From: a virus
IMG/VR virus record: IMGVR_UViG_3300025645_000586
Location: 1-20,425 of that record
Direction: 5' to 3' (one strand)
DNA: 20,425 nucleotides
Part shown: positions 2,427 through 20,264 of the stretch, in pieces
How the letters are laid out: every line of letters starts with the position of its first letter
Position numbering within the stretch: position 1 is the stretch's first letter
Made by a program: the position numbers and the translations under genes
Notes under the pieces: generated by a model
What the model was told of the DNA's origin: nothing
The model's input: only the letters and a program-made list of their open reading frames with translations
Databases searched by the model: none

Positions 2427-2852
2427 TTAATCCTTGGAGTATTGTCTAATAGTAACGCCAGCTTCTTGAAGCACAGCGATACCTTCGTGGGGTGATAGCC
2501 GGAATAAGTCTCTGTAAACTACAGTAGAAATTCCTGACTGAATAATTGAAAGAGCACAATGCACACAAGGAGACAACGTAGTGTATAGAATTGCTCCTTC
2601 AGAGGAGGAGTGTGAACGCGCTATCTTTGCGAGTGCATTGATCTCAGCGTGTATCACGGTGGGGAGGGTTCGACCCTCTTGGTTCTTACATTCGTTATCG
2701 AAACCAGCGGGGGTTCCGTTATAACCATAACCAAGTATGCGGTCTCCTTTAGAGATTACGCATCCGACTTTAGTAGAGCTATCATACGACTGTTGTGCTA
2801 CGCGAGCAGCAATGTCCATCATGAAGGCTTCTTGTTTGTGGAAGTTACTCAT
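2427..2852 (-). CDS. dCMP deaminase
   Basis: This enzyme converts dCMP to dUMP, the substrate for dTMP synthesis. The 141-residue protein has the zinc-dependent cytidine/deoxycytidylate deaminase signature: H68-A-E70, with E70 the proton shuttle, and P95-C96-x-x-C99 as the other zinc ligands. It also has the GYNGTPAGFD loop typical of the ComEB/dCMP deaminase family. It is the first gene after the AAA+ ATPase. A phage-type promoter and a hairpin terminator lie in the 77 bases upstream, so it heads a new transcript with ribonucleotide reductase. The ribosome binding site is weak (ATAGG). No thymidylate synthase is visible here. Confidence 0.93.
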   Translation of the reverse strand: MSNFHKQEAFMMDIAARVAQQSYDSSTKVGCVISKGDRILGYGYNGTPAGFDNECKNQEGRTLPTVIHAEINALAKIARSHSSSEGAILYTTLSPCVHCALSIIQSGISTVVYRDLFRLSPHEGIAVLQEAGVTIRQYSKD

Positions 2853-2871
2853 AGGGATTTGCCTATATTGG

Positions 2872-2899
2872 TTAAAGAACCCCTACTCGGAAGTAGGGG
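2872..2899 (-). terminator. Hairpin terminator or 5' leader stem-loop after promoter copy 2
   Basis: On the minus strand CCCCTACT, a TCCG loop and AGTAGGGG form a perfect 8-bp stem, followed by TTCTTT. It would stop host-type transcription leaving the AAA+ gene. It also lies about 14-33 bases downstream of the predicted start site of the phage promoter at 2905-2931, so the same hairpin would cap the 5' end of a transcript started there. Confidence 0.8.
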
Positions 2900-2904
2900 C
2901 ATGT

Positions 2905-2931
2905 GGTTTCTTCTTTAGAAGGTGTCACTTT
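2905..2931 (-). promoter_or_regulatory. Phage RNA polymerase promoter, copy 2 (SP6/T3-like)
   Basis: These 27 bases are identical to 15551-15577. The minus-strand core is GTGACACCTTCTAAAGAAGA. It resembles the promoters of T7-family polymerases: GTGACAC and the GAAG start region as in SP6 (GGTGACACTATAGAAG), and TAAAG as in T3. The predicted first transcribed base is the G at 2913. The copy overlaps the stop codon of the AAA+ gene and points towards dCMP deaminase and ribonucleotide reductase. The repeat is seen directly; the promoter role is inferred. Confidence 0.72.
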
Positions 2932-4648
2932 AAAACTGGAATGATTTACTCATTTCAGCCTTTAACACCTCTGGCATTGTACGTCTTTTGAGCTCAATCT
3001 CAGCTTTAACCATCTCACGAATGCGCTTGATGGTAGGCTTCTTGGGTTCGAATAGAGCAGCTTGTTGCACTACCTTTAAATCACCCGGAGTCATAAAGTC
3101 ATAAAGACCAAGTTTGCTTTTCTTGAATTGTGGAAAGTACATTTGGAAACACTTCTCAGTCTGCTCTTCATTCATAAACTTAAACTCAGTTTTCAAGAAT
3201 AGTCTACGAAGTATAGCAGGGTCTAAGCCTTCCATGAAGTTAGAAGTACAGAAGAAGATGCCATTGAAGTCATCAAGCTCAGTAAGCAACTGATTTGTAA
3301 AGGTTTTCTGATGCTGACGATCAGCACTATGGCGGCTTCCTGCCATAGAGTCAATCTCATCAATCAACAAGATAGCCCTTTCTTCTTTAGCTTCTTCAAA
3401 GGCTTTGTGTAGATTCTTCTCGCCTTCACCTACGTACTTAGACTGCAGTTCACCATAGGTCTTCTTGATTACTTTCATACCTAGCTCTCTACCAATGTGG
3501 TTAGCTAGCGCACTCTTACCTGTACCGGGAACACCATAGAACAATCCAGTGATAGTCTTTGGACGGTCTGCAATAGGTTTGTCCATTATTGACTTCATTC
3601 TCTCTACCAAGCTCTCAGCAGAAGGTTCAATGTTAACAATAGAAACATCATAAGGCTCTGAGACTAAATCAGCTTGAACCTCATCAGGGACTAGTGAGAC
3701 GACAATGCCTTTACCAAAGACCATTTCAGTTACAGGTTCAACTTCTTGTGTAAACTTTAAGTCTCGGTTTGCACGTTCTCTTGTGGCTATAATCTTTTTA
3801 GCCATGTAGATTATTTCTTCTTTGTTAAACTCAACAGGATTTACTCTTAAAACAATACCGGGAATGTCTTCCCCTTCAAGAGTTACTTTAACATCTTCAC
3901 CTAAAGCCCATTGCTTCTCTGTAGCTGCAGCTGAACCACCTCCACCTGCAAGACTATTGATAAATGAATCGAAAGCAAAGAAGCTCATTTCATCTCCAGT
4001 ATCAAAAGTATCACTTGGTCTATCAGCGCTAACTAAGTAATCATAGAAATAGCTTAACTCTACACCGAACCACTGGATAATAGCATCACTACGCATGTAG
4101 TAATCATAAGCACCTGAATTTAAGAGAGCTTCACCTACGCCCGCAGGGTCGTAAGTGCCATAAGTGCGAGCTATGTGAGTCACACTGCCAGTAGGCTTTC
4201 TCAGTATGCCCGGTCGGAACACTAATAAGTTTTGAATGTAAGGTCCATTTAAGAAATCATTTACTATTTTCGATGCTTCTTTTAAAGACATATTTGGTCC
4301 CTCTTTTATGAGTTTAGCAGCCTCTTCTCGTTCAATTAAGCGCTCAGAGTAATCAAGCAAAAACGCGTGAAACTGCTGCAGTTCTCTTTGTATACCTGTT
4401 TCTTTCCAGCTACCAAAGCCTTTAAGTGAATCACACAGGTCTAAACATTTTTCAGCGTCAAACAGATCTGGTTCATTTTCAAGTAAGTTAACATCCCAAG
4501 GGCTTACACATTGATTAGAATCATCGTGTATTTGAATTAACTTCTTGTAAATTTTATTAGTCCGATTAGACTCTAAGTTAGTGTATCTAGCAATAATGAT
4601 CATTGAAGTTACTAGGGCTTTAAAGCTAACTATGTTGTACTCTGGCAT
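2930..4648 (-). CDS. AAA+ family ATPase
   Basis: The 572-residue protein carries a C-terminal AAA+ module. Walker A is GVPGTGKS (372-379), Walker B is ILLIDEID (426-433), sensor 1 is the Asn in FFCTSN (N470), and arginine-finger candidates are R481/R482 in AILRRL. The pattern is of the classical FtsH/katanin-like clade, which usually forms ring hexamers that unfold or remodel proteins. The N-terminal 340 residues match no domain I recognise. They include a Gly-rich linker near 235-240 and probably recognise a substrate. The gene follows the primase-helicase after nine bases and precedes a promoter and terminator, so it closes the replication transcript. A role in remodelling replication proteins or host factors is a guess from position. 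No protease motif (HExxH) is seen. Confidence 0.85.
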   Translation of the reverse strand: MPEYNIVSFKALVTSMIIIARYTNLESNRTNKIYKKLIQIHDDSNQCVSPWDVNLLENEPDLFDAEKCLDLCDSLKGFGSWKETGIQRELQQFHAFLLDYSERLIEREEAAKLIKEGPNMSLKEASKIVNDFLNGPYIQNLLVFRPGILRKPTGSVTHIARTYGTYDPAGVGEALLNSGAYDYYMRSDAIIQWFGVELSYFYDYLVSADRPSDTFDTGDEMSFFAFDSFINSLAGGGGSAAATEKQWALGEDVKVTLEGEDIPGIVLRVNPVEFNKEEIIYMAKKIIATRERANRDLKFTQEVEPVTEMVFGKGIVVSLVPDEVQADLVSEPYDVSIVNIEPSAESLVERMKSIMDKPIADRPKTITGLFYGVPGTGKSALANHIGRELGMKVIKKTYGELQSKYVGEGEKNLHKAFEEAKEERAILLIDEIDSMAGSRHSADRQHQKTFTNQLLTELDDFNGIFFCTSNFMEGLDPAILRRLFLKTEFKFMNEEQTEKCFQMYFPQFKKSKLGLYDFMTPGDLKVVQQAALFEPKKPTIKRIREMVKAEIELKRRTMPEVLKAEMSKSFQF

Positions 4649-4657
4649 ATTATTTCC

Positions 4658-6304
4658 TTAGAGTTCTGGTTCTTTATTAAAAGTGCTTCCATCTACATAA
4701 CCAAGACGACCTGTCTCTGCTTCATAGTAAGCTCCACCTGCATTACCTGTCTTACCTGTGTATCTTGACTTTAGAACACGAATCTTAATAGTGTTCTTTT
4801 CTCTTTCATCGTTACTTACCATGTTACGAGCAAATGCGATAATCTGAAATGAGACTTGCTTGATAGAGCCTGAGCCTTTAATATCATCCATAGATGGTAG
4901 CTTGCCCTCTTCAAATGCAGTTCCATTTCCGCTTGTCTTTCTTAAGTGAGAGATAACACCTAGCCACACATTGTGTTTCTTACAAATCTTTAAAAGGTCA
5001 CTCATTACCTTATCTACTGCACTATTGACATCGCCTTCTACTTCAGAGGTGGCAATTGTCAAGTGATCGAGAATCAGATACTTACAACCCATAAGACACA
5101 TGGTTTCAATCTTGTCCATTAAGGAACCATCAGATACAGAACCCTGATGATCCAGAAGAACAATACTCCGATCACTAAACACAGCATCAAAAGCTTCTCT
5201 TTTGTCTTCTTGGGATACATCTTCTTTTTCCGTTAAGTTAACTTTCATTTGCATACCGATAAATTTCTCTACAGTATCACCCGGGCCTTCTTCTAATGAG
5301 ATCATGCCTATCTTGTCTTCTGTGGTTTCTTTAAGATGCAAGACAATCTCTTTGATCATCGTACTCTTACCGGAGCCTGTACCAGAGGTAAACAAGTCTA
5401 ATTCACCGAATCGCATACCTTTAGTTAGAGCATTAACACCTTCCATACAAGGAGGGTAAGGGATAGACTCTGTTGCTTCACGCTCTAAGAACTTATCCCA
5501 CAGAGTATCACCTTGGAGAATACCAGAGGGTGACCACGGTTGAGCATCCCAGACTGCTTTAAGGATATCCATATAACCATGTTTGATTAGCTCATCGTTA
5601 GCGTCTTTCTCTTTTAACTTAGCTATCTTTACTTTATCAATACCGACTATAGAACAGGCTTTGTCTAGTGCTTTCTTACCGGCTTCATCGTTGTCAAGCA
5701 TCAATACTACTTCATCAAACTGTCTTACCCAGTCTCTCTGTTCAAGCAGAGCTTTAGTACCACTCGCAGAAGGCAGAGATACCACAGGGTAGACTTGACC
5801 GTACTTCTTCATGGAGGCAGTAGCTACAGCCATAGCATCTAGTTCGCCTTCAGTGATAATTAATCGCTTACCACCATTGAACTTGGATTGACCGAAGAGA
5901 CCCTCAATACCTTCAACTACACGAAAGTCTTTAGGTAATGTTCTGACTTTATAGCCTATAGTCTTATCAACACCATAAGGGTAATAGTGAGAATCAACAT
6001 TGCCATTAACATCTACACCTGCCTTTACTCCAAAGAATTCACATATGTCTTTAGGGATCTGTCGCTCTTTGAAGCCTCTTGTAGAATAAGTGTCTATCTC
6101 AGCGAGAGACACCTTTGAGTAGTTAGAGCCGCTAGGTGCGACAGCTGTGAATCCCTCAGGGGTTTCATTAGGGTTCTTGTGGATAGCATCACAGGCCATG
6201 CATTTCGCGGGGCCTGACTCATAGACAGCTACTGCATCACTTGAACCGCAAGCAACGCATTCACTATGGCCTAAGAAGTTAGACTTTTCTTGTTGCTTCT
6301 TCAT
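4658..6304 (-). CDS. T7 gp4-like DNA primase-helicase
   Basis: This bifunctional replication protein unwinds the fork and makes RNA primers. At 548 residues it is close to T7 gp4 (566). Domains in order: an N-terminal zinc-binding domain with C16/C19 and C35/C38; a TOPRIM primase core with E152 in IITEGELDA and D204-N-D206; and a RecA-like hexameric helicase. In the helicase, Walker A is SGTGSGKST (307-315), the catalytic Glu is in SLEEG, Walker B Asp and His are in LILDH (410-414), there is a sensor His in VISHLRK (H453), and the arginine finger lies in RVLKSRYTGKTG, as in T7. The start ATG follows GAGGAT at good spacing. It would work with the DNA polymerase (9734-12269) and SSB. The zinc domain is complete, so a full-length primase form is expected. 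No internal-start short form is evident. Confidence 0.95.
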   Translation of the reverse strand: MKKQQEKSNFLGHSECVACGSSDAVAVYESGPAKCMACDAIHKNPNETPEGFTAVAPSGSNYSKVSLAEIDTYSTRGFKERQIPKDICEFFGVKAGVDVNGNVDSHYYPYGVDKTIGYKVRTLPKDFRVVEGIEGLFGQSKFNGGKRLIITEGELDAMAVATASMKKYGQVYPVVSLPSASGTKALLEQRDWVRQFDEVVLMLDNDEAGKKALDKACSIVGIDKVKIAKLKEKDANDELIKHGYMDILKAVWDAQPWSPSGILQGDTLWDKFLEREATESIPYPPCMEGVNALTKGMRFGELDLFTSGTGSGKSTMIKEIVLHLKETTEDKIGMISLEEGPGDTVEKFIGMQMKVNLTEKEDVSQEDKREAFDAVFSDRSIVLLDHQGSVSDGSLMDKIETMCLMGCKYLILDHLTIATSEVEGDVNSAVDKVMSDLLKICKKHNVWLGVISHLRKTSGNGTAFEEGKLPSMDDIKGSGSIKQVSFQIIAFARNMVSNDEREKNTIKIRVLKSRYTGKTGNAGGAYYEAETGRLGYVDGSTFNKEPEL

Positions 6305-9733: not shown

Positions 9734-10232
9734 TTAATGAGTTTCATACCAATTATCACCTGACATTGCTTCGCCATCCATACAAGTAACACCAAACAAC
9801 TTAGGTGCTTCTCTGAATGATTCAGCGGCTATTTCCATAGCTCGTTCCACTTGATCCTCTCGTACTGAGAGCTGGAACTCATCGTGATAAAGAACCATCG
9901 GGCGTACATCAATGCCCTCTGCTCTCATCTTGTGCATAGCATATACATAGGCACCTTTACAAGTCACAGCTTCCATGCTTTGAAGCAGGTAGTTGAGAGC
10001 CTTGTGTCCGGAGTCTAGATATATACGTCTACCGTCAATTGCTGGGATGCTTGCCCGTTCCTTACGGTGCTCGCACATCTTGACGATTTCCATAAGGCGA
10101 TCCGTGAGACGTTTGAAGCCGGGAATTGCTGCTGCAAACTTGGCACGGGATTCTCCGCCAGCTTTCTTGTTTCTAACTCCTGTAAGGATGAGACCCAATT
10201 TTTCGAGTCCTGCTCCAAACAGGAAGGCATAG
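9734..10232 (-). CDS. DNA polymerase (family A, T7-type), exon 2: palm/fingers C-terminus
   Basis: This is the 3' exon of the polymerase gene. Joined to exon 1 it encodes residues 456-620. It begins with the rest of motif B (YAFLFGAGLEKLG, T7 YGFLYGAGDEKIG), contains the helix with ALNYLLQSMEA (T7 ALNTLLQSAGA), and ends with motif C HDE in VLYHDEFQL, whose Asp is a catalytic metal ligand. The C-terminus NWYETH aligns with T7 NWAICH. A TTG-initiated frame can be read from 10243, but those first residues are intron sequence, so an independent protein is unlikely. The spliced protein (620 residues) is shorter than T7 gp5 (704). Confidence 0.93.
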
Positions 10233-10905
10233 CAAATGTTCAAAGTGGTTCGTTAAGCCACTCCCGTTCTCTTATGAACTGCTATATGTCACCATATAGT
10301 TCGGACTATATCATCACCTTTCGGTGTTATGCGCTTCCACTCACTTGAGTGTACTCCTTTCGGATAGTCTCTGCACCTTCCAAGTATGTTGCTGCTACCT
10401 TCAGCAACTCAGGGTTGTCTTGAAACAGACCTAAACCCCTATTACAATTGTGACACAATTTACCACGTACAAAGTCAGTGCCGTGTTTATGGTCTAAACA
10501 CAGCTTTTGGGAGTGAGGACCACCTTGCATAGTAAAGCCCTCTAAACCACATATCTGACACTTATCTATTTCTTTAAATTTTAGATAAGCTTTCTTCGTA
10601 TAGTATCCTGCTCTCTTTCTACCTATCATACTCTGAGCGTTACGACATTCTATGCCGCAATAATCTTCTCGCACAGTAGTAGGTTTAAAAAGTGTATCAC
10701 AAAGTTTACAGGGTTTTAATCGGTCTTTTCCAGAACAACCATCACATACAGACTGATTATGAACAAAAGGAGCAAAAGCTAAATTGCATTCTTTACATTC
10801 TTTTTCTTTGTAAGACATAATAAAACTCCTAACTTGGCTTGGCTCAGGATTGTCTCTTACGAGATGTTCCCTGAGTTCACATAATTTAACGTGGACCTAT
10901 TACCA
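10233..10905 (-). ncRNA. Group I intron in the DNA polymerase gene (T4 td-like, IA2-type)
   Basis: This is a 673-nt self-splicing-type intron. The exon end CGTGGAT (10912-10906) pairs over seven bases with the internal guide GTCCACG (10896-10890), with the required U-G pair at the splice site (P1). AUAG next to the guide pairs with the first exon-2 bases CUAU (P10), and the intron ends in G. The core resembles T4 td: CTCAGGGAAC...CAATCCTGAG (P4/P6) around a GUAA-capped P5, AGACTATCC and GATATAGTCC (P7 halves, near 10361-10372 and 10302-10315), CACC-GAAA-GGTG (P8), and CTATATG-GTGA-CATATAG (P9). Splicing restores RNTAKPWIYAFLFGAG, matching T7 motif B. An endonuclease gene occupies the P6-side loop. 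Confidence 0.95.
10327..10818 (-). CDS. Intron-encoded endonuclease VII-like HNH homing endonuclease
   Basis: The 163-residue protein ends in a His-Me finger domain of the endonuclease VII type: C87/C90, LCLDHKHGTDFVRGKLC (D109, H110, H112) and C122/C125, followed by NRGLGLFQDNPELL. The four cysteines bind a structural zinc, and the DH pair is catalytic in the family. The N-terminal half has three more CxxC or CxxxC pairs (C8/C11, C25/C28, C37/C40, C54/C58), probably zinc ribbons for DNA recognition. AGGAG precedes the ATG. The gene lies inside the polymerase intron, and its last 15 codons also encode the intron core (P7 5' half and neighbours). It would cut intronless polymerase genes to spread the intron. 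Confidence 0.9.
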   Translation of the reverse strand: MSYKEKECKECNLAFAPFVHNQSVCDGCSGKDRLKPCKLCDTLFKPTTVREDYCGIECRNAQSMIGRKRAGYYTKKAYLKFKEIDKCQICGLEGFTMQGGPHSQKLCLDHKHGTDFVRGKLCHNCNRGLGLFQDNPELLKVAATYLEGAETIRKEYTQVSGSA

Positions 10906-12524: not shown

Positions 12525-12736
12525 TTAAATGCACCTTGGTGTACTAGTTCTTCATAAGTCTTCCACAGCTTCTTGAACTTCAGTTCTCCGATAGAAGACA
12601 AACCTAACAAAGCATTTGCAGTCTTATCGCAGTCTGTTAATTCAGCGTGGAACACCAGATCTATATCATTAATAATAGACCAACAATCCATTATTTGTGT
12701 TTCTAGATCAAACCTATCAGTCGTTGTTTTCAACAT
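12521..12736 (-). CDS. Small conserved phage protein (71 residues)
   Basis: The chosen ATG has AGGAG eight bases upstream. An upstream in-frame ATG (12814) would overlap the DUF3310 gene by about 100 bases and is less likely. The helical product has a pattern I recall from small proteins of many T4-like and T7-like phages: an acidic DINDIDLVF segment, then NALLGLSSIGELKFKKLWKTYEELV. No activity is known for that group. It overlaps the DUF3310 gene by 20 bases and the next gene by four bases (ATGA). Confidence 0.75.
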   Translation of the reverse strand: MLKTTTDRFDLETQIMDCWSIINDIDLVFHAELTDCDKTANALLGLSSIGELKFKKLWKTYEELVHQGAFK

Positions 12737-13511
12737 GAATCTCTCCTGTTTGAACAAACTTAACCAGACAATTAGTGTACCACCGAGCTTTACGAATGTC
12801 TTGCTCATAGTCATCTTTCTTGCCTGCTCGCATTAAATACTTGTATACTTGACCAAATAAGTGAGCTTCAACGCCTGACTTGCCATTTAACATATGTTGC
12901 ATCATTTGCATATATTGCATACCAGGGACTACATCATTATAGTGCTTACCCGATACATAATGATCCACATCTTTTTCTGGATTGTTATCAAATTCAGCTT
13001 CTACATTAAAATCTTCCATTAAAGGGTCACTACCATCAGAACCATAAGGGCACTCAGGTGTCAAGGATTTTGCATACATCCATGTCATATCTTTATCTGC
13101 TTCCATTAAAGGGTCACTACCATCAGAGCCATAAGGGCACTCAGGTGTCAAGGATTTTGCATACATCCATGTCATATCTTTATCACCCATGCTCACTCCT
13201 CTAGCCCAGTCATCAAACTCTTTTTGAACAACAGGGTCTTCGAAGGTCTCTGACCATTTAACTGAACCTTTAAGTTCACGGAGGCCCTTTGCTGCTTTAT
13301 CCATACCTACAGGTTTACTGTGCGCTTTAGTTGCAGCATCCCACTCAGCAGGTGTTGCATCATTTAGCTGACGAGCTGCTTTACCGAACACACTATCTTT
13401 TACACTTATTTTCATATCAGTATCCTTTTGATTGTCTATAAAATCTTGTAGTTCATAACGGTGATAAGGGTTTCTTTTATGCGCTTCATAGAAGTCAGCA
13501 ATGTCTGTCAT
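12717..13511 (-). CDS. DUF3310 (SaV-like) domain protein with NDATPAEWD motif and internal tandem duplication
   Basis: The C-terminal 80 residues match the DUF3310 family: a HYNDVVPGMQYMQ start, then FGQVYKYLMRAGKKD, then DIRKARWYTNCLVKF. These proteins occur in many T7-like phages as a nucleotide-kinase-like annotation of unknown activity. The middle holds two copies of a 28-residue unit (DKDMTWMYAKSL...DPLME) joined by one Ala, coded by an 87-bp near-perfect DNA duplication. The N-terminal part has LNDATPAEWDAATK, shared with the partial gene at the left edge. Translation may start at the first ATG (one-base overlap with the upstream stop) or at an internal ATG at 13415 with AAAGGAT, giving 232 residues (MKISVKDSVFGKAARQLNDA). 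Confidence 0.85.
   Translation of the reverse strand: MTDIADFYEAHKRNPYHRYELQDFIDNQKDTDMKISVKDSVFGKAARQLNDATPAEWDAATKAHSKPVGMDKAAKGLRELKGSVKWSETFEDPVVQKEFDDWARGVSMGDKDMTWMYAKSLTPECPYGSDGSDPLMEADKDMTWMYAKSLTPECPYGSDGSDPLMEDFNVEAEFDNNPEKDVDHYVSGKHYNDVVPGMQYMQMMQHMLNGKSGVEAHLFGQVYKYLMRAGKKDDYEQDIRKARWYTNCLVKFVQTGEIHVENND
13013..13184 (-). repeat. 87-bp in-frame tandem duplication (two copies)
   Basis: The 85 bases at 13013-13097 recur at 13100-13184 with one difference (A in the first, G in the second, in a CAGAACC/CAGAGCC context). The period is 87 bp, or 29 codons, so the reading frame is kept. The one-base divergence implies a very recent event. Confidence 0.95.
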
Positions 13512-14928: not shown

Positions 14929-15426
14929 TTACCATTGATCGTCATCAGAGTCAGTGTCGACAGGCACAACAACTTGAGTTGCTCCTTCGTCTTCAAAGCT
15001 CAATCCAGCTTTAGACTTGTATTCTACAAGGCGTGTTACTTGAATGCCTTTAATACTTGAGCCAGTACCGGTCTTACCATTCATTGTGTATTCATATTGA
15101 TCGATCTGAACATTACCAATAGAACCATTACCAATTATAGTACCGTCTAGGGGCATTAATTGACCATCTACAATAGTAGGTGGCTTACGAGGTGTACCGT
15201 CTCTCATCGCTGCTTTAGCTTTAAGATTTACTTGATAGTACAGACCATCATCATCTTCTTTCGGGGTTACGTTTAATTCACTCTCTTTCCAAGTCTTTGC
15301 TTCGTCTTTTGAACGAGTTCGGATTTGAACTTCCCAATGTGGCTGAGGAGCGTTGAAAGGGTTTACTGGAGAGGCTGGATCAAGTTTAGCCCAGAAGAGT
15401 TCTGCATTACGGATTACGATTGACAT
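14929..15426 (-). CDS. Single-stranded DNA-binding protein (T7 gp2.5-like)
   Basis: The 165-residue protein has the traits of phage SSBs: a likely OB-fold body (residues 1-140, alternating strands, with ELFWAKLDP at the start and a GNGSIGNVQIDQYEY strand pair) and a strongly acidic tail ending in an aromatic residue (VDTDSDDDQW). In T7 gp2.5 the same type of tail contacts polymerase and helicase. It is shorter than gp2.5 (232). It is the first gene after the RNA polymerase and follows phage-promoter copy 1, as SSB follows RNA polymerase in T7. AAAGGA precedes the ATG. It is followed by a strong terminator. Confidence 0.85.
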   Translation of the reverse strand: MSIVIRNAELFWAKLDPASPVNPFNAPQPHWEVQIRTRSKDEAKTWKESELNVTPKEDDDGLYYQVNLKAKAAMRDGTPRKPPTIVDGQLMPLDGTIIGNGSIGNVQIDQYEYTMNGKTGTGSSIKGIQVTRLVEYKSKAGLSFEDEGATQVVVPVDTDSDDDQW

Positions 15427-15518
15427 AGGGTATTTCCTTTAAGTGTTTGAGGTTTGATAATGAGATATTCATTACCTAGTTTTATGTAAGTGTTTTAGTC
15501 TTAAATATACATAACGAT

Positions 15519-15537
15519 AATGTCCCTTATGGGCATT
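15519..15537 (-). promoter_or_regulatory. Leader stem-loop downstream of promoter copy 1
   Basis: The minus-strand sequence AATGCCCATAAGGGACATT folds into AATG-CCC, an ATAA loop and GGG-(A)-CATT, a stem with one bulged A. It begins about 22 bases after the predicted transcription start (15559). Promoter copy 2 also has a hairpin in its first 35 bases, so both phage transcripts would begin with a stem-loop. The rest of the 150-base gap before SSB holds no gene that I see. Confidence 0.5.
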
Positions 15538-15550
15538 AATGTTAGCATTG

Positions 15551-15577
15551 GGTTTCTTCTTTAGAAGGTGTCACTTT
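15551..15577 (-). promoter_or_regulatory. Phage RNA polymerase promoter, copy 1 (SP6/T3-like)
   Basis: Identical over 27 bases to 2905-2931. Minus-strand core GTGACACCTTCTAAAGAAGA, with the predicted start G at 15559. It overlaps the stop codon of the RNA polymerase gene and points at SSB, a place where T7-like phages typically switch from early to middle transcription. Similarity to SP6 (GTGACAC, GAAG) and T3 (TAAAG) promoters supports the call. Confidence 0.75.
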
Positions 15578-17904
15578 TAACAAAATGCGAAATCAGACTC
15601 CATTATCGCATTCAAGTCTAAGTTGCCTTTTGGTGGTAAAAGCTCTAAAGCGTTTACTTGGGTTAGTACATCTTCAAGTGGTTCACTGGTGTAAAAGTCT
15701 ACAAAGGTCTCTCTAACTACTCTAAACATATCACTCATGTCTCCTATATGACAACCGAAGCTGTCGTGAATTACTGTAACAGGAAAGTCACAAGCTACTA
15801 TGGTAGATGTTAAATGAGCCGCATCGAATGAATGAACTAAGTTTGGTGCAGCACCTGTCTTCTGTGCTCTCTTCTCTAGCTTTCTTCTTTCATACGGACG
15901 TATAGTAAGTCGCAGGGTATTAGGTGGGTTATAAAGCGCTTTCGCTTCACCTTTGCCTTTGTACTTAGGTCTACTGCTACCTTCTTTGCAAAACCTAACT
16001 TCTAGCTGTATCTCTTTAGTGGCTTCATAGGCTTGGACCACTGGGAATCCAGTTACAGGAACAGTCCACTTCAAGAACTCACCTTGATCATTAGCTCTTT
16101 CAGCTAGTGTTCTGAACAAGTCAAGCATGGCCGCTGGTCCCTTCATATTAGAAAGTGTGGTGTCCATCAACAAGTCGCCGAAGGGGTTAACCCATCCTTT
16201 CTCTTTGAACTTAAGCTCTTCAGACAGGGTTCGAGTATCATCAAATACTTGCTCTCTTACACCCATCTTAGTAACACCGTAGCCAAGAGTCATCACAGGT
16301 CGCTTCACAGTCTTTCGCTGAAGCTTCTTGTCAGTGGCTAGTCTCATCCAGAATGGGACAAACATGCCCTTAGTTTGCTCACGATTATCCTTACGCCACT
16401 GATCAAGCTCAGCAAATACAGCGTTCTTGTCTTCCTTGGTTACAGTCTTTTCCATCTTAAGTTTAATAGCTGTTACTTCTTTAATAAAGCGGTCAGCATT
16501 AGCTTTTAACTCAGGTGAGATCTCTTCGTACAACTCTGCTAGCGCTTGCCAAGTCTTCTCCGCGACGAACATATAGACGTCTCCGGGAATCTCAGTAGGC
16601 ACAAGGTTAACAAGGTGAGCAACAGTATCATCAAGACTCAAAGCTGTCAGATGTTGTACACCGTTATTAGAACCGTCAATAAACAAAGGTAAAGCACTCT
16701 CGTACTCTTCTATGTTGCCTCCATACTCTAACCTTGTCTGTATGTTAGCCCACTCGAAACAACAAGCCAAGAATGACCACGACTTATCTGCTTTAGTCCA
16801 CCCGTTATTAGTGTAGGGGTCTTCAGCGTAAGCACATATGTCATCCATGTTATCTTGAACCCATTGAGCTCTGCCATCCAGTGTTAACTTGTCTTCACCC
16901 CAGCAGTTTGCTGTGTGAACACCAAGCCAGTAAGCACCTTCTTCTCCTAGGGGTTTCTCATGGTCATACAAGATTAAACCTTTAGCATTATCAGACGACT
17001 GTTCGTGTAGATATGAAGACCCGGGGTATATACGGCCTCTGAAGTCACAATTGTACCTGTGATAAAATTTCTTATCTAGGAAGCCCTCTGCAATCGCAAG
17101 GATCGCATCTGCCTCCAAGTACATACCCTCTCTACTTGGTTTTCTTTCCTCCTTCTGATGTTTAAACGGCGAATCCTTATCCACAACAAACTCACGAGAG
17201 AACACGGTTTCCCTATCTTGTTGTTTTAAAAGGGTTTTATACACAGAGAATACTTTATGATTTATAACGTAACCTGTGTTTTGAAGCTTGTTCAAAGCAT
17301 TAAGCACTATTGGACAGTTGTCCTTAGTGATTTGCTCTAGGGCTTTTGAGTTACCTCTACGGATTAATGTATGCCCGTCTACATGATAGCCTGATTCCCA
17401 GTCAGGTGCGGCGGTAGACCTAGGACTCTCTTCTAACGAAGCCACATCTAACTCAGCCCATAACTCTTCAAACAAAGTCTCATCTAGCATATCAAGGTGG
17501 TAGGTAGCATTCTTAGTTCTGCTAGTGTCCTTTCCGCGTTGATGCATTTTCTCTATGCCTAATAATTTAAATTTGGCTTGAGGCTTGTCTTTATTACAAT
17601 AAGCTTCTAGTATCTTTAAACCAAAATACAAAGAGATCCTAGTTTCATTTTTATCATCTTCTTTTACTCCAATGTTTCTTCTAACTTTATTACCAAGCTT
17701 TATTGCGGTTTCAGTTAGCATGGATCTACTTCTTAACGCCATTAACACTGAGCCAAGAGTCATTTCAACAATCTCAATTACAGTTTCATCCCAGTCCATC
17801 CCTTTCTCTTCAAGGTATTCTGGAAACCACTTATTGTTATTTCTCCCGTCCTTAGTGTCTATCAGGCGTTCTGCCATGCTGTCTATAAGGCGTTGTTTCG
17901 GCAT
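15577..17904 (-). CDS. T7-type single-subunit RNA polymerase
   Basis: This enzyme would transcribe the phage middle and late genes from its own promoters. The 775 residues (T7: 883) contain the catalytic residues in order: D410 in FIDGSNNGVQH (T7 D537), K534 and Y542 in TVKRPVMTLGYG (T7 K631, Y639, same 8-residue spacing), and D714 in VIHDSFG (T7 D812). The specificity-loop region (about 663-680, LRLTIRPYERRKLEKRA) is more basic than T7's. The C-terminus is DFAFC, close to the T7 FAFA foot needed for activity. TAGGAG lies seven bases before ATG. Just upstream is a 34-bp hairpin with T12, so expression seems gated. Promoter copy 1 overlaps its stop codon. Confidence 0.97.
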   Translation of the reverse strand: MPKQRLIDSMAERLIDTKDGRNNNKWFPEYLEEKGMDWDETVIEIVEMTLGSVLMALRSRSMLTETAIKLGNKVRRNIGVKEDDKNETRISLYFGLKILEAYCNKDKPQAKFKLLGIEKMHQRGKDTSRTKNATYHLDMLDETLFEELWAELDVASLEESPRSTAAPDWESGYHVDGHTLIRRGNSKALEQITKDNCPIVLNALNKLQNTGYVINHKVFSVYKTLLKQQDRETVFSREFVVDKDSPFKHQKEERKPSREGMYLEADAILAIAEGFLDKKFYHRYNCDFRGRIYPGSSYLHEQSSDNAKGLILYDHEKPLGEEGAYWLGVHTANCWGEDKLTLDGRAQWVQDNMDDICAYAEDPYTNNGWTKADKSWSFLACCFEWANIQTRLEYGGNIEEYESALPLFIDGSNNGVQHLTALSLDDTVAHLVNLVPTEIPGDVYMFVAEKTWQALAELYEEISPELKANADRFIKEVTAIKLKMEKTVTKEDKNAVFAELDQWRKDNREQTKGMFVPFWMRLATDKKLQRKTVKRPVMTLGYGVTKMGVREQVFDDTRTLSEELKFKEKGWVNPFGDLLMDTTLSNMKGPAAMLDLFRTLAERANDQGEFLKWTVPVTGFPVVQAYEATKEIQLEVRFCKEGSSRPKYKGKGEAKALYNPPNTLRLTIRPYERRKLEKRAQKTGAAPNLVHSFDAAHLTSTIVACDFPVTVIHDSFGCHIGDMSDMFRVVRETFVDFYTSEPLEDVLTQVNALELLPPKGNLDLNAIMESDFAFC

Positions 17905-17927: not shown

Positions 17928-18037
17928 AAAAAAAAAAAACGTCTAGCCCCCTGTCCTTACAGGTTTTATACAAAACACTAACAGCCCGAGGGCCATCAAT
18001 GTGTTGTATAAAACCTGTAAGGACAGGGGGCTAGACG
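17928..18037 (-). terminator. Very long perfect hairpin with T12 tract upstream of RNA polymerase
   Basis: The arms 17940-17973 and 18004-18037 are perfect 34-bp inverted repeats. After a two-base bulge, three more pairs continue. The loop holds a small GCC-CTCG-GGC stem. On the minus strand the structure ends directly in 12 T residues (17939-17928), giving a very strong terminator for the early transcript. Only 23 bases separate the T run from the RNA polymerase ATG. The long duplex could also be an RNase III site. The 172 bases between genes hold no other feature except the RNA polymerase ribosome binding site. Confidence 0.88.
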
Positions 18038-18076
18038 CTTGCGCGTGGGTGTTTCTTAAACTCAAAGATAATACTA

Positions 18077-18439
18077 TTACCAATCATCGCCATACGAACT
18101 ACTACTGTTACCCTGGATCATCTTGCGCTCAAGGATGGTCAGTTCGATCTGTGCCTTTCGTAGCTCAATGGCTTCCATCGCAAGCGAGTTATCGTACATC
18201 TGAACACAGTTAACGCTTCGACTATTATCGCGACCTAGCTCGATTTTGTAAGCCATGCGCATGCTACCAGTTTGCGTAAAGGGATCAACTTGTGTGCTGA
18301 ACTCCAAAGATTTACCTGAGGATTTGTCTGAGCTACAGCTGTTACCAAATGCGTTCTGGATTTGAACTCGCTCTTCAGCTTGCGCTATTGACGATAAGCC
18401 TAGAACAAATAGTGCTACGAATGTCAGTTTGTTTTTCAT
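18077..18439 (-). CDS. Exported protein with signal peptide and C-terminal helix (120 residues)
   Basis: The protein begins with a clear Sec signal peptide (MKNKLTFVALFVLGLSSIAQA, cleavage after residue 21). The mature part has two cysteines (C35 and C78), which could form a disulfide. It then has a beta-rich section (LEFSTQVDPFTQTG, MRMAYKIELG) and a charged helix (about 85-110, possible coiled coil), and ends SSSSYGDDW. GGAG lies upstream of ATG. It overlaps the preceding exported-protein gene by 65 bases in another frame. No lipobox is seen, so a soluble periplasmic or secreted protein is expected. I recognise no family. It is the last gene before the long hairpin. Confidence 0.75.
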   Translation of the reverse strand: MKNKLTFVALFVLGLSSIAQAEERVQIQNAFGNSCSSDKSSGKSLEFSTQVDPFTQTGSMRMAYKIELGRDNSRSVNCVQMYDNSLAMEAIELRKAQIELTILERKMIQGNSSSSYGDDW

Positions 18440-18758
18440 CTCGTCCTACTCCTTTTAACCGTGAACATACCAAAAGCTTCTTCTGCTCTGTAGCCTTGAA
18501 TTCTATTACAACATGTCTTTCTGAATTTGGAAGCAATTTATAGATCTTTTTTATCGTTCTCCAATCGTTCGACTTAGTCCGATCTTTTTCCCAAACAAAT
18601 ATCTCAAACACTGCTGGGAAAGGGTAGTCGTTTCTGATCGTGTAAGCTTCCTCGTGATATTTGCCAATCGCTTGTACTACCTGGCTTGAAGGAGACATGG
18701 AGTGCCCTAGCGTGAAGCTAGAGCAGACCATGGCCATTGCGATTAAAATGATTTTCAT
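18375..18758 (-). CDS. Exported protein, possibly single Ig-like domain (127 residues)
   Basis: I chose ATG 18758, which overlaps the preceding stop by four bases (ATGA). A Sec signal peptide (MKIILIAMAMVCSSFTLGHS) is followed by about 80 residues with alternating strands (EAYTIRNDYPFPAVFEIFVWEKD, a Trp-containing turn, YKLLPNSERHVVIEF, KKLLVCSRL). This pattern faintly recalls the first domain of PapD-type pilus chaperones, but only by eye. The last 22 residues are coded by sequence that also encodes the next gene's start and signal peptide, so the native C-terminus may be unusual. It lies in a coupled set of three exported proteins. Confidence 0.68.
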   Translation of the reverse strand: MKIILIAMAMVCSSFTLGHSMSPSSQVVQAIGKYHEEAYTIRNDYPFPAVFEIFVWEKDRTKSNDWRTIKKIYKLLPNSERHVVIEFKATEQKKLLVCSRLKGVGRDEKQTDIRSTICSRLIVNSAS

Positions 18759-19339
18759 TGTATGCACTCGACATCATGTTGGATTAAGTACTCTACTTCT
18801 TCTTTTACCGCAGTCGCATCGACTTCAGCGTAACCGCCAAGTTCAAACTTAGTGTTGAATTCGTCAGTCGTGTTAAAGACACCGGATTTCGCTTCAGTTT
18901 CAGTGCTCCAGACGATGCCGCCAATGTCGATGACTGATATAGAGAAGTCGTCTGTAGTCTTACTTGCAACGCCTACAATATTATCAGCGTTATCTACGGT
19001 GGCATTTTTTGCTTGTTTATAATTATACTTGATCTGCGAGGCGACTGTCTTACCAGTTTTGCTGTCTACTAAGGTGCCTACAGGTGTAACCGCGATAACT
19101 TTCTGGCCTTTAGCTTCGATATCAATTGTACCAACCTTTGTAACGATCCAGGTGCCTTTGCCGTCGTAGGCCATAACCGCGGGGGTTACGTTGGTAAACA
19201 AACAGCGGTCTTCAGTTACGAACGTTCCCTTTGAACCGATTTTAGTAGCACTGTCTGGATTAGGTAAAATTGCTGATTGAGCTCCAAAAGATGCCAGGGC
19301 TAATACTGCTGCGAGTGTTTTCATTTTAAAGTTATTCAT
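18755..19339 (-). CDS. Exported beta-rich protein with signal peptide (194 residues)
   Basis: The ATG at 19339 is preceded by AAAGGAAA and starts a Sec signal peptide (MNNFKMKTLAAVLALASFGA, cleavage likely after QSA at 23). The frame extends upstream to 19417, but the signal peptide makes the inner start far more likely. The mature protein is rich in Thr, Val, Gly and Lys with alternating strands (KGTWIVTKVGTIDIEAKG, VIAVTPVGTLVDSKTGKTV, DDFSISVIDIGG), typical of a secreted beta-sandwich. C46 and C192 could be bonded. A pilin-like or surface-subunit role next to a chaperone-like neighbour is conceivable but weak. The stop overlaps the next gene's ATG. Confidence 0.72.
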   Translation of the reverse strand: MNNFKMKTLAAVLALASFGAQSAILPNPDSATKIGSKGTFVTEDRCLFTNVTPAVMAYDGKGTWIVTKVGTIDIEAKGQKVIAVTPVGTLVDSKTGKTVASQIKYNYKQAKNATVDNADNIVGVASKTTDDFSISVIDIGGIVWSTETEAKSGVFNTTDEFNTKFELGGYAEVDATAVKEEVEYLIQHDVECIQ

Positions 19340-19436
19340 ATTATTTTCCTTTAGGATTTTAGTTTGGTTTTTCATAAGGTTTAAAACATTGATTAGTATG
19401 ACTTTTAATTCTTCCATATTAGATACGTACTTTTTC

Positions 19437-19574
19437 TCACTTTTTTGGTTTATTTTTAACTATTTTTCGAGCATTAAAAATAAGCGATTTTTGCTCTTTT
19501 GTCAAAGAAGCCCATTGGTCTGGGGTGAATATTAGATTAGCTTTCTGTCTTAAAGACAAAGATTTAATATCCAT
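19437..19574 (-). CDS. Small basic protein (45 residues)
   Basis: The ATG overlaps the stop of the DUF1289 gene by one base (TGATG), with AAGGAAA upstream. The 45-residue product is basic, ends KNKPKK, and has a helix-turn-helix-like look: SLSLRQKANLIF, then TPDQWASLTKEQKSLIF, then NARKIVK. Such a short basic helical protein could bind DNA, RNA or a host enzyme, but no family is recognised. It is followed by a 97-base spacer before the exported-protein set, in which I see only a possible in-frame extension of the next gene. Confidence 0.62.
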   Translation of the reverse strand: MDIKSLSLRQKANLIFTPDQWASLTKEQKSLIFNARKIVKNKPKK

Positions 19575-19732
19575 CACTTATTTCCTTTTATGTTATTCAT
19601 AATAGTTTTACGCTTTTCTTCACTGTACTTAGACCACATCTTAATATCTTTTAAAGTTCTTTTACAACCTGTACAGGCGTCTCTGTAAATTCTACAGGCA
19701 CTTATACAGGGAGAGCTTGCTGGTTTGTCCAT
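19574..19732 (-). CDS. DUF1289 family protein
   Basis: The 52-residue protein matches the bacterial DUF1289 pattern: SPCISACRIYRDACTGCKRT followed by LKDIKMWSKYSEEKRKTIM. The four cysteines (SPC, C, C-x-x-C with GC-R-T) are the family's hallmark and probably bind a metal. The ATG at 19732 has a strong AAGGAGG ribosome binding site eight bases upstream. The frame opens further upstream (19765) but that part overlaps the preceding gene. DUF1289 proteins are common in proteobacteria, where their function is unknown. Here the gene is likely host-derived and expressed early. It is coupled to the 45-residue gene. Confidence 0.85.
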   Translation of the reverse strand: MDKPASSPCISACRIYRDACTGCKRTLKDIKMWSKYSEEKRKTIMNNIKGNK

Positions 19733-19746
19733 AAGAAAATCCTCCT

Positions 19747-19941
19747 TTATTTGTATGAAGCACAAGAGTCTGTCTTGTTAATAAAGTCTGCACCCTTCTG
19801 TGAAGAAGACAACCGATCTACACAATTGTCATATGTGCCACTTGCCAGTTTAAATGAACCTGATTGTGCTAAAGCTCCAATTATAAAAATAGCGATAACA
19901 GTGTAGATTGAAGCTTTAAGTAGTTTTTTAATAAATTTCAT
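19747..19941 (-). CDS. Membrane-anchored small protein, paralogue A (64 residues)
   Basis: The ATG with AAGG upstream starts MKFIKKLLKAS, followed by one hydrophobic segment (about 12-27, IYTVIAIFIIGALAQ) that acts as a membrane anchor or uncleaved signal. The outer part has two cysteines in YDNCVDRLSSSQKGADFINKT-x-C and ends CASYK. It is a clear paralogue of the gene at 20055-20264: the same MKFIKK start, hydrophobic segment and C-terminal pattern C-x3-LS-x3-KG-x-x-FIN-x3-C-x-x-YK. The cysteines probably form a disulfide in the periplasm. Role unknown; a small envelope protein expressed early could be involved in superinfection exclusion. Confidence 0.72.
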   Translation of the reverse strand: MKFIKKLLKASIYTVIAIFIIGALAQSGSFKLASGTYDNCVDRLSSSQKGADFINKTDSCASYK

Positions 19942-19983
19942 AATAATTACCTTTTTATTTAAGTTAAGAATCTGTCTCATCAG

Positions 19984-20020
19984 CACATGTAGATTAGTTC
20001 ATGTGGACGCCCGAAGGCGT
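19984..20020 (-). promoter_or_regulatory. Two stem-loops between the paralogous genes
   Basis: Two hairpins lie in the 113 bases between the two MKFIKK genes. One is ACGCC-TTCG-GGCGT (20020-20007, 5 bp with a stable UUCG loop); the other is CACATG and CATGTG around ten bases (20005-19984). Neither is followed by a T run, so they look more like mRNA stability or processing elements, or an operator, than a terminator. Confidence 0.45.
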
Positions 20021-20054
20021 TTCGACTTTACTTTCTGTCTACGAAGTATAAGGG

Positions 20055-20264
20055 TTATTTGTACTCGCTACAATAATCTCTGTTATTAATAAACTCTTTA
20101 CCTTTTTCTTCATCAGACAAACTAGCTTTACACCTCTCATACATAGTAAGACTGCTGGTTTTATTAAGTTGTGATCCATCGCCAGGACCTACTATAGCGC
20201 CTAGCACTATAAGGGCTACAAAAATAGCAGTTAAAACTTTAAGTGATTTCTTAATAAATTTCAT
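20055..20264 (-). CDS. Membrane-anchored small protein, paralogue B (69 residues)
   Basis: The ATG is preceded by AAAGGAAAC. The product begins MKFIKKSLKVLTAIFVALIV, with one membrane segment (about 9-26), then a Gly-rich linker (GPGDGSQ) and a C-terminal domain YERCKASLSDEEKGKEFIN, ending CSEYK with two cysteines. The gene at 19747-19941 is its tandem paralogue, with near-identical first 15 bases. No lipobox is seen. Both may be exported small proteins anchored in the inner membrane with a disulfide-held head outside. Confidence 0.74.
   Translation of the reverse strand: MKFIKKSLKVLTAIFVALIVLGAIVGPGDGSQLNKTSSLTMYERCKASLSDEEKGKEFINNRDYCSEYK

Follow-up and report, generated by a model that had tools for sequence, protein, structure and literature searches.

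The viral DNA analysed here (IMG/VR record IMGVR_UViG_3300025645_000586, 20,425 nucleotides, hereafter the window) carries two identical repeats that very probably act as promoters for the phage's own T7-like single-subunit RNA polymerase (RNAP); they are designated P1 (predicted +1 at 15559) and P2 (predicted +1 at 2913). Promoter function is strongly supported through sequence comparison with relatives. A first-pass annotation of the window had already read the repeats as the phage's own promoter, pointing along transcription, and this reading gains its support from copies in relatives, concerted change within each phage and covariation between polymerase residues and promoter bases. The kind of promoter, T7-type, is already known; the base word is new.

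The repeat pair and its surroundings

The 27 identical bases lie at 15551–15577 and 2905–2931, both on the minus strand, exactly as annotated, and form part of a 36-nt pair with 92% identity. Their 20-base core, GTGACACCTTCTAAAGAAGA, occurs exactly at 15555–15574 and 2909–2928 (minus strand), these being its two copies in the window, and 100 shuffled sequences gave no match with up to three mismatches allowed. P1 comprises positions -17 to +6, AAGTGACACCTTCTAAA followed by GAAGAA, at 15554–15576 (minus strand), directly 3' of the RNAP stop codon and ahead of a gp2.5-like single-stranded DNA-binding protein (SSB) gene (14929–15426, minus strand; PHROG 112, 4.1e-12). P2 is the same word at 2908–2930 (minus strand), overlapping by one base the stop codon of an AAA+ ATPase gene (2930–4648, minus strand; PF00004) and preceding a deoxycytidylate-deaminase-family gene (2427–2852, minus strand; PF00383). 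Both copies thus read with the adjoining minus-strand genes, as annotated; the stop codons, described there as overlapped in both cases, are abutted in one and overlapped by a single base in the other. The deaminase shares 42% identity over 113 amino acids with its counterpart in phage DSS3_VP1, which is reported to be the dCTP deaminase of a deoxyuridine-DNA phage (PMC12697855).

The repeats had also been presented as the only two long ones in the window, which does not hold, because an 85-nt tandem pair (13013–13184) and a 51-nt inverted repeat (17937–18040) are present as well. The tandem duplication is near-perfect, with a spacing of 87, and lies within the ORF at 12717–13511; the window and the related contig G006 each hold two copies of its 55-nt unit, which was not found in contigs G004 and G012 at up to 14 mismatches. 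The inverted repeat (minus strand) is 88% complementary, is followed by 12 T and stands just 5' of the RNAP gene, as it also does in G004 and G006. Two-sided changes affect 7 of its 57 predicted pairs, four of them in the main stem, and the structure resembles an exceptionally long terminator or attenuator ahead of the RNAP gene. Further 5' of that gene, small ORFs on the minus strand (18077–20264) include three whose N-termini resemble signal peptides by eye (18755–19417, 18077–18439 and 20055–20264); the ORF at 18755–19417 had no PHROG match, and the region is possibly an early region. The DNA polymerase A gene is split by about 673 nt (about 10232–10904, minus strand), an insert absent from G004 and G006, with an exact joint. 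Within it lie an endonuclease VII-like ORF (10327–10818) and a sub-threshold match to a group I intron (RF00028, E 1.5e-6; 32.9 bits, the gathering score being 50).

Copies of the element in related phages

Within the 20,425-base record, no copies beyond the two were found at up to three mismatches. As the source record is itself this fragment, the search for further copies proposed in the annotation could be run on relatives only, and there they were found, between genes and on the gene strand. An RNAP search of viral contigs returned nine loci, six 87–98% identical to the window RNAP and three 39% identical, and among cultured phages the phage collection gave DSS3_VP1 (MN602266.1) as the closest, likewise at 39%. 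G004 carries ATGACGCCTTCTAAAGAAGA at both places found, and G006 (43.6 kb) carries TACCGCCTTATAAAGAAGA at four. G001 (35 kb), in which head and tail genes but no RNAP match were found, carries three copies of the window's word, one of them with two mismatches. All copies, two in the window fragment, four in G006 and three in G001, are intergenic and on the gene strand. In close relatives, the sites follow the RNAP gene, follow the AAA+ gene and precede a PhoH-like gene, with further ones flanking a terminase-like gene on either side and one ahead of a group of lysis-type genes (the last gene names being readings of the sequences); the relatives' copies stand in front of syntenic genes.

A scan of 12 sequences, including the near-duplicates L067/L072 and G009/G011, placed all 47 copies on the gene strand and 42 of them between genes, against an expectation of 0 to 0.23 copies per sequence; the five copies within ORFs comprise four in DSS3_VP1 and one in G012. 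The gene strand here means the strand of the RNAP gene; for G001 and G013, neither of which gave an RNAP match, the strand of the adjacent genes was taken. A degenerate scan of viral contigs yielded 31 stretches, of which 29 were examined together and two (L003 and L004) separately. Nineteen of the 29 loci, on 15 contigs, showed at least five protein matches to the window, G006 or G001, with no site inside a same-strand ORF of at least 60 amino acids; the other ten showed 0 to 2 such matches, with three sites within an ORF. Loci L044 and L048–L050 were rejected as sites because they appear by eye to be coding (V-T-P-S-K-E-D-D). L005 was rejected as a phage of the same type, its exact match lying within an ORF on a contig without relatives of the compared proteins.

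More distant relatives have words of their own. De novo searches identified (A/G)ATAGG(G/T)(T/G)(A/G)CGTTAAAG in DSS3_VP1 (13 copies), TA.C(T/C)GACCTTAAAG in L067 (three copies), AAATACTTGACCCTTATG in G011 (five copies) and AAATACTTCGCCCTAATG in G010 (four copies). A word also precedes the SSB gene in G010, G011, G012 and DSS3_VP1, with downstream SSB-homologue ORFs at 27867, 17943, 2835 and 46619. In DSS3_VP1, the 13 predicted T7-register promoters are spread over 2241–59215 on the gene strand, three of them in tandem (19201–19345) before a 538-aa ORF. The features listed for 22553–64631 of MN602266.1 include no promoters, and the literature searched, which did not extend to the original DSS3_VP1 paper, yielded no description of promoters of this group. 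In L067 (7760) and L072 (2160), a promoter word stands about 235 bases ahead of the RNAP gene, which suggests self-stimulation; the window has no copy ahead of its RNAP gene at up to five mismatches.

The copies change in concert within each phage. Between different places in one genome, identity was 0.936 in the core (-16 to -5) and 0.305 in the flanks (13 pairs); for one place in different genomes, the corresponding values were 0.726 and 0.493 (21 pairs). Only 6 of 20000 within-place permutations reached 0.936. For this comparison, each contig was treated by itself, sites were taken from word patterns, and the second site of G013 was assigned to place P3 by its flank. The copies therefore follow the genome and not the neighbourhood, a pattern that a shared trans-acting reader produces.

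The polymerase and its probable recognition code

The presumptive reader of P1 and P2 is the 775-aa T7-like polymerase encoded at 15577–17904 (minus strand; PF00940, 2.1e-80; PHROG 414), in which all six T7 active-site residues considered (D537, R627, K631, Y639, H784 and D812) are conserved. A structural model built from 41 sequences reached a mean pLDDT of 88.4, replacing an earlier model from nine sequences (60.5) that was set aside. The predicted fold matches T7 and mitochondrial RNAPs (Foldseek, 3e2e_A, E 9.8e-31) and aligns with the T7-promoter complex 1cez_A over 662 residues (Z 34.5, 3.4 A). The specificity hairpin (codons 622–670; 15895–16041, minus strand) contains an insertion of about 20 residues at about 637–662, and by alignment Q633, E635, T663 and R665 correspond to T7 746, 748, 756 and 758. 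The annotation had noted an unusually basic specificity loop at about 663–680. The hairpin is indeed enlarged and basic, but the unusual part is the insertion, residues 663–680 forming the returning strand and beyond. In the window's clade, the hairpin has about 20 residues more than in T7, T3, SP6, DSS3_VP1, G010, G011 and L067; the specificity hairpin of pelagiphage Kolga contains an insertion of another kind.

To obtain promoter words for more polymerases, we widened the RNAP search, which found 174 relatives, 80 of them kept, and looked for recurring words 3' of the RNAP gene. This covered 69 of the 80 loci, of which seven had too little sequence and 62 were examined. Recurrence of at least 17 of 20 bases was seen on the same strand in 45 of these and on the opposite strand in 14; at 18 or more, the counts were 22 and 0. 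Four of the 22 recurrences (L091, L105, L115 and L140) look like ribosome-binding or coding repeats, and the others include near-duplicates. Most loci gave no word in this search, and in L007 and L010, which carry P1, the best-scoring recurrence was nevertheless another repeat. The covariation set comprised 28 loci, the window and the 27 of the 80 kept loci for which a word could be named (26 in the recurrence table, with L012 outside it); none could be named for L090–L092. The words were chosen by the analyst, from earlier comparisons for L006, L007, L009, L012, L013, L086 and L143, by synteny for L087 and L088, whose short contigs hold no second copy, by likeness to neighbours for L152 (best recurrence 16) and from recurrence for the rest. 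Registers were likewise set by the analyst on TAAAG, TAATG or TTATG. Loci with RNAPs at least 60% identical and the same word at -13 to -8 were merged, giving 17 lineages.

In T7 RNAP, R746 contacts -7. The T7 specificity loop reads -11 to -7, with N748 contacting -10 and -11, R756 contacting -9 and Q758 contacting -8 (PMC5937735). We paired each of 577 RNAP columns with each of nine bases, 5193 pairs in all, leaving out T7, T3 and SP6 and ranking the pairs uncorrected for shared ancestry. The pair 758 x -8 ranked first (R-C in eight of the 17 lineages, K-A in four and Q-T in two, together with D-G, H-A and W-G) and 746 x -7 ranked second (R-C in ten, Q-T in three and Q-A in two, together with E-G and D-G). 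Neither had been preconceived, whereas the idea of 748 x -11 predates the scan and came from L087/L088 and T7/T3/SP6. That pair came 50th overall and second among the 577 for its base, with E-C in seven lineages, K-G in three, R-G in one, and K-T, N-A, N-T, Q-T, V-A and W-T in one each; its exceptions are K with T (L013), N with A (L094) and N with T (L150). In repeats with two seeds, 758 x -8 ranked 1 and 2, 746 x -7 ranked 3 and 4, and 748 x -11 ranked 11 and 23 of 5193, the last again second of 577 for its base. The pair 756 x -9 was not recovered by the scan (126 of 577 for its base; 963 and 618 of 5193 in the repeats).

Information summed over the three pairs came to 4.65, a value that none of 20000 permutations reached; they averaged 1.83 and went no higher than 3.32. 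When the window's clade was removed (12 lineages), 758 x -8 ranked fifth and 746 x -7 seventh of 5121, and 748 x -11 dropped to 227th overall (19 of 569 for its base). Most of the top 15 pairs in the scan involve columns outside the hairpin, and three hairpin columns appear in the top 20 of the repeats. Among the phages left out, all three fit at 746 (R-C); at 748, T3 (D-C) and SP6 (R-G) fit, and T7 has N-G; at 758, T7 and T3 have Q-T and SP6 has S-A. Specificity-loop residues at 746, 748 and 758 thus match bases within -11 to -7, three of the four T7 specificity residues examined covarying with the expected bases.

Two relatives provide a near-isogenic natural swap. The L087 and L088 RNAPs differ at 35 of 775 residues, and the 180 bases around P1 differ at six: -13 to -11 read ACC in one and GTG in the other, and the remaining three are -17, which is the second position of the RNAP stop codon, the final position of the preceding codon and one base further upstream. 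All compared DNA 3' of -11 is identical. Of the 35 amino-acid differences, 11 fall in the 50-residue hairpin, several within the insertion (Fisher p 3.5e-6 against unchanged residues and 0.018 against synonymous changes, with hairpin limits set once the clustering was visible). One of the 11 is E to K at the T7-748 position, which accompanies a C-to-G change at -11. Comparison of the window with L006, L007 and L009 gave no significant enrichment of amino-acid changes in the hairpin. We tentatively suggest, at less than even confidence, that the clade's enlarged hairpin may, unlike the T7 hairpin, read bases further upstream than -11, at about -13 and -12 and perhaps as far as -15, and that promoter identity has spread upstream. 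The L087/L088 swap would then alter a recognition code of greater width, and this clade would offer a ready-made collection of distinct polymerase-promoter pairs.

Proposed transcription and alternative readings

Binding, start sites and timing at P1 and P2 are what we infer from these comparisons. The RNAP would dock on double-stranded -17 to -5, its specificity hairpin reading about -11 to -7, with E635 facing C at -11, R665 facing C at -8 and Q633 facing T at -7. TAAA at -4 to -1 would be melted, and transcription would start on the G at +1 of GAAGAA. P1 would drive the SSB gene and the genes behind it, and P2 the deaminase and ribonucleotide reductase genes. The resulting leaders would soon fold into stem-loops, as predicted for both the P1 leader (15427–15559, minus strand; noncoding and A+T-rich) and the P2 leader (2853–2913, minus strand; stem 2880–2899). 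Across 17 sites of the window's clade, 36-nt stretches had their lowest mean folding energy, -8.3 kcal/mol, when starting 10 nt past the predicted start, compared with -5.7 at offset 0, -6.8 at offset 20 and -2.1 to -4.3 elsewhere between -80 and +80. The 13 DSS3_VP1 sites gave -9.7 at the start, -9.3 from 10 nt before it and about -3.2 to -6.2 elsewhere, several of these leaders pairing from their first bases on. Such folding agrees with that of T7 leaders. Some individual leaders folded no better than shuffles, for example those at G001 10403, G014 98 and 1871, DSS3_VP1 2257, and L072 4931 and 8065.

The annotation had described the repeats as a new SP6/T3-like type, with GTGACAC taken as the SP6 element and separated from TAAAG by four bases more than in SP6. 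GTGACAC, TAAAG and GAAG are literally there, and SP6 promoters carry GTGACACTATAG, but we consider this hybrid highly improbable. In T7 register, TAAAG occupies -4 to +1 and GTGACAC -15 to -9, with no insertion needed, whereas SP6 has GTGACAC at -11 to -5 followed by TATAG, an arrangement that the window word lacks. Nor is GTGACAC conserved, as it becomes ATGACGC and ATACCGC in relatives with RNAPs 98% and 88% identical. A residue-base rule learned outside the clade, with T7, T3 and SP6 included, agrees with 12 of 15 pairs in T7 register and with 4 of 15 in SP6 register; seven other shifts gave 3 to 8. Identity in T7 register to T7 phi1.1A, T3 phi1.05 and SP6, with words taken from their records, was 12, 11 and 12 of 23, so SP6 is not singled out. 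The words of distant relatives share one layout with T7, with ATA at -15 to -13 and TNNNG at -4 to +1; the window has GTG and G004 ATG at -15 to -13, and L133 and L153 also lack ATA. As in T7-type promoters, the element has a conserved word from -17 to +6 in the standard register, with G at +1.

Two further readings would dispense with the polymerase. The small hairpin that CTTCTAAAGAAG can form just past stop codons, with stem-loops behind it, could mark an RNA element at gene ends, either a terminator or an RNase processing site; for 31 of the 47 copies an upstream stop codon is no more than 14 nt away, and leader stem-loops are predicted. The closing C-G pair of this mini-hairpin is, however, lost in the G006 type (CTTATAAAGAAG, all four intergenic copies), on which ground we rejected CTTCTAAAGAAG as a hairpin or terminator, and distant words such as AATAGGTTACGTTAAAG have the T7 register in common but not the hairpin. 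An RNA element would also leave the covariation with RNAP hairpin residues unexplained, and we judge it very improbable. Repeated intergenic words can equally be operators, and the site could belong to another phage or host regulator or be a host sigma-type promoter, independent of the phage RNAP; sigma-70-like matches in the window are at chance level (42 against 44.6 expected). That possibility appears remoter still, as the word changes with RNAP lineage and specificity-hairpin residues covary with it. A role of P1 as primary replication origin, as in T3, would be compatible with its being a promoter, and we regard this addition as conceivable though unlikely. T3 phi1.05 (5642–5664) starts 12 bases past the RNAP stop (5630) and is followed by the annotated primary origin (5682–5758); P1 is similarly placed, in a 180-nt region with 68% A+T against 59% for the window. 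The argument rests on position and composition, and noncoding DNA is often A+T-rich.

With P1 and P2 read as promoters of the phage's own polymerase, the useful part is the series to which they belong, in which many uncultured phages have related polymerases and different words, together with one near-isogenic swap. In these relatives, polymerase and password change together, which helps in reading how such enzymes recognise DNA, and the natural series, with its covariation and swap, makes a recognition rule for single-subunit polymerases testable on natural variation. It also offers new polymerase-promoter pairs and would aid the calling of promoters and transcription units in uncultured phages.

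Comparison with known systems

The closest parallel is the T7/T3-type promoter of Autographiviridae, with which the element shares a 23-bp layout, a hairpin-read segment at -12 to -5, TNNN at -4 to -1 (TAAA here), G at +1, a place after the RNAP gene and before other genes, and the covariation of 746, 748 and 758 with -7, -11 and -8. It differs in having GTG at -15 to -13, positions that read ATA or TTA in T7 and in most of the relatives. The window RNAP has the larger hairpin, by about 20 residues, in a shorter protein (775 versus 883 aa), and a related contig carries structural genes similar to those of the Naomviridae phage DSS3_VP1. The SP6 promoter shares the letters GTGACAC and GAAG and the G at +1, but in the window GTGACAC is displaced upstream by four bases, and other members of the clade do not keep it; SP6 RNAP has R at the 748 position, where the window has E.

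DSS3_VP1 resembles the window in its RNAP (39% identical), in homologous SSB, exonuclease, primase/helicase, DNA polymerase and deaminase genes, and in its T7-register words on the gene strand, one of them 48 bp ahead of the SSB homologue; its word is another one and its hairpin lacks the insertion. The window's replication genes and the G001 head and tail genes match those of DSS3_VP1 at about 31–45%. Another study has named phage RNAP-promoter pairs from genome sequences and tested them in vitro, recognising promoters, by the same approach, as repeated words upstream of genes (PMC13029058); the polymerases described there are near Vibrio phage JSF35 and SP6-like phages, and not the window's clade.
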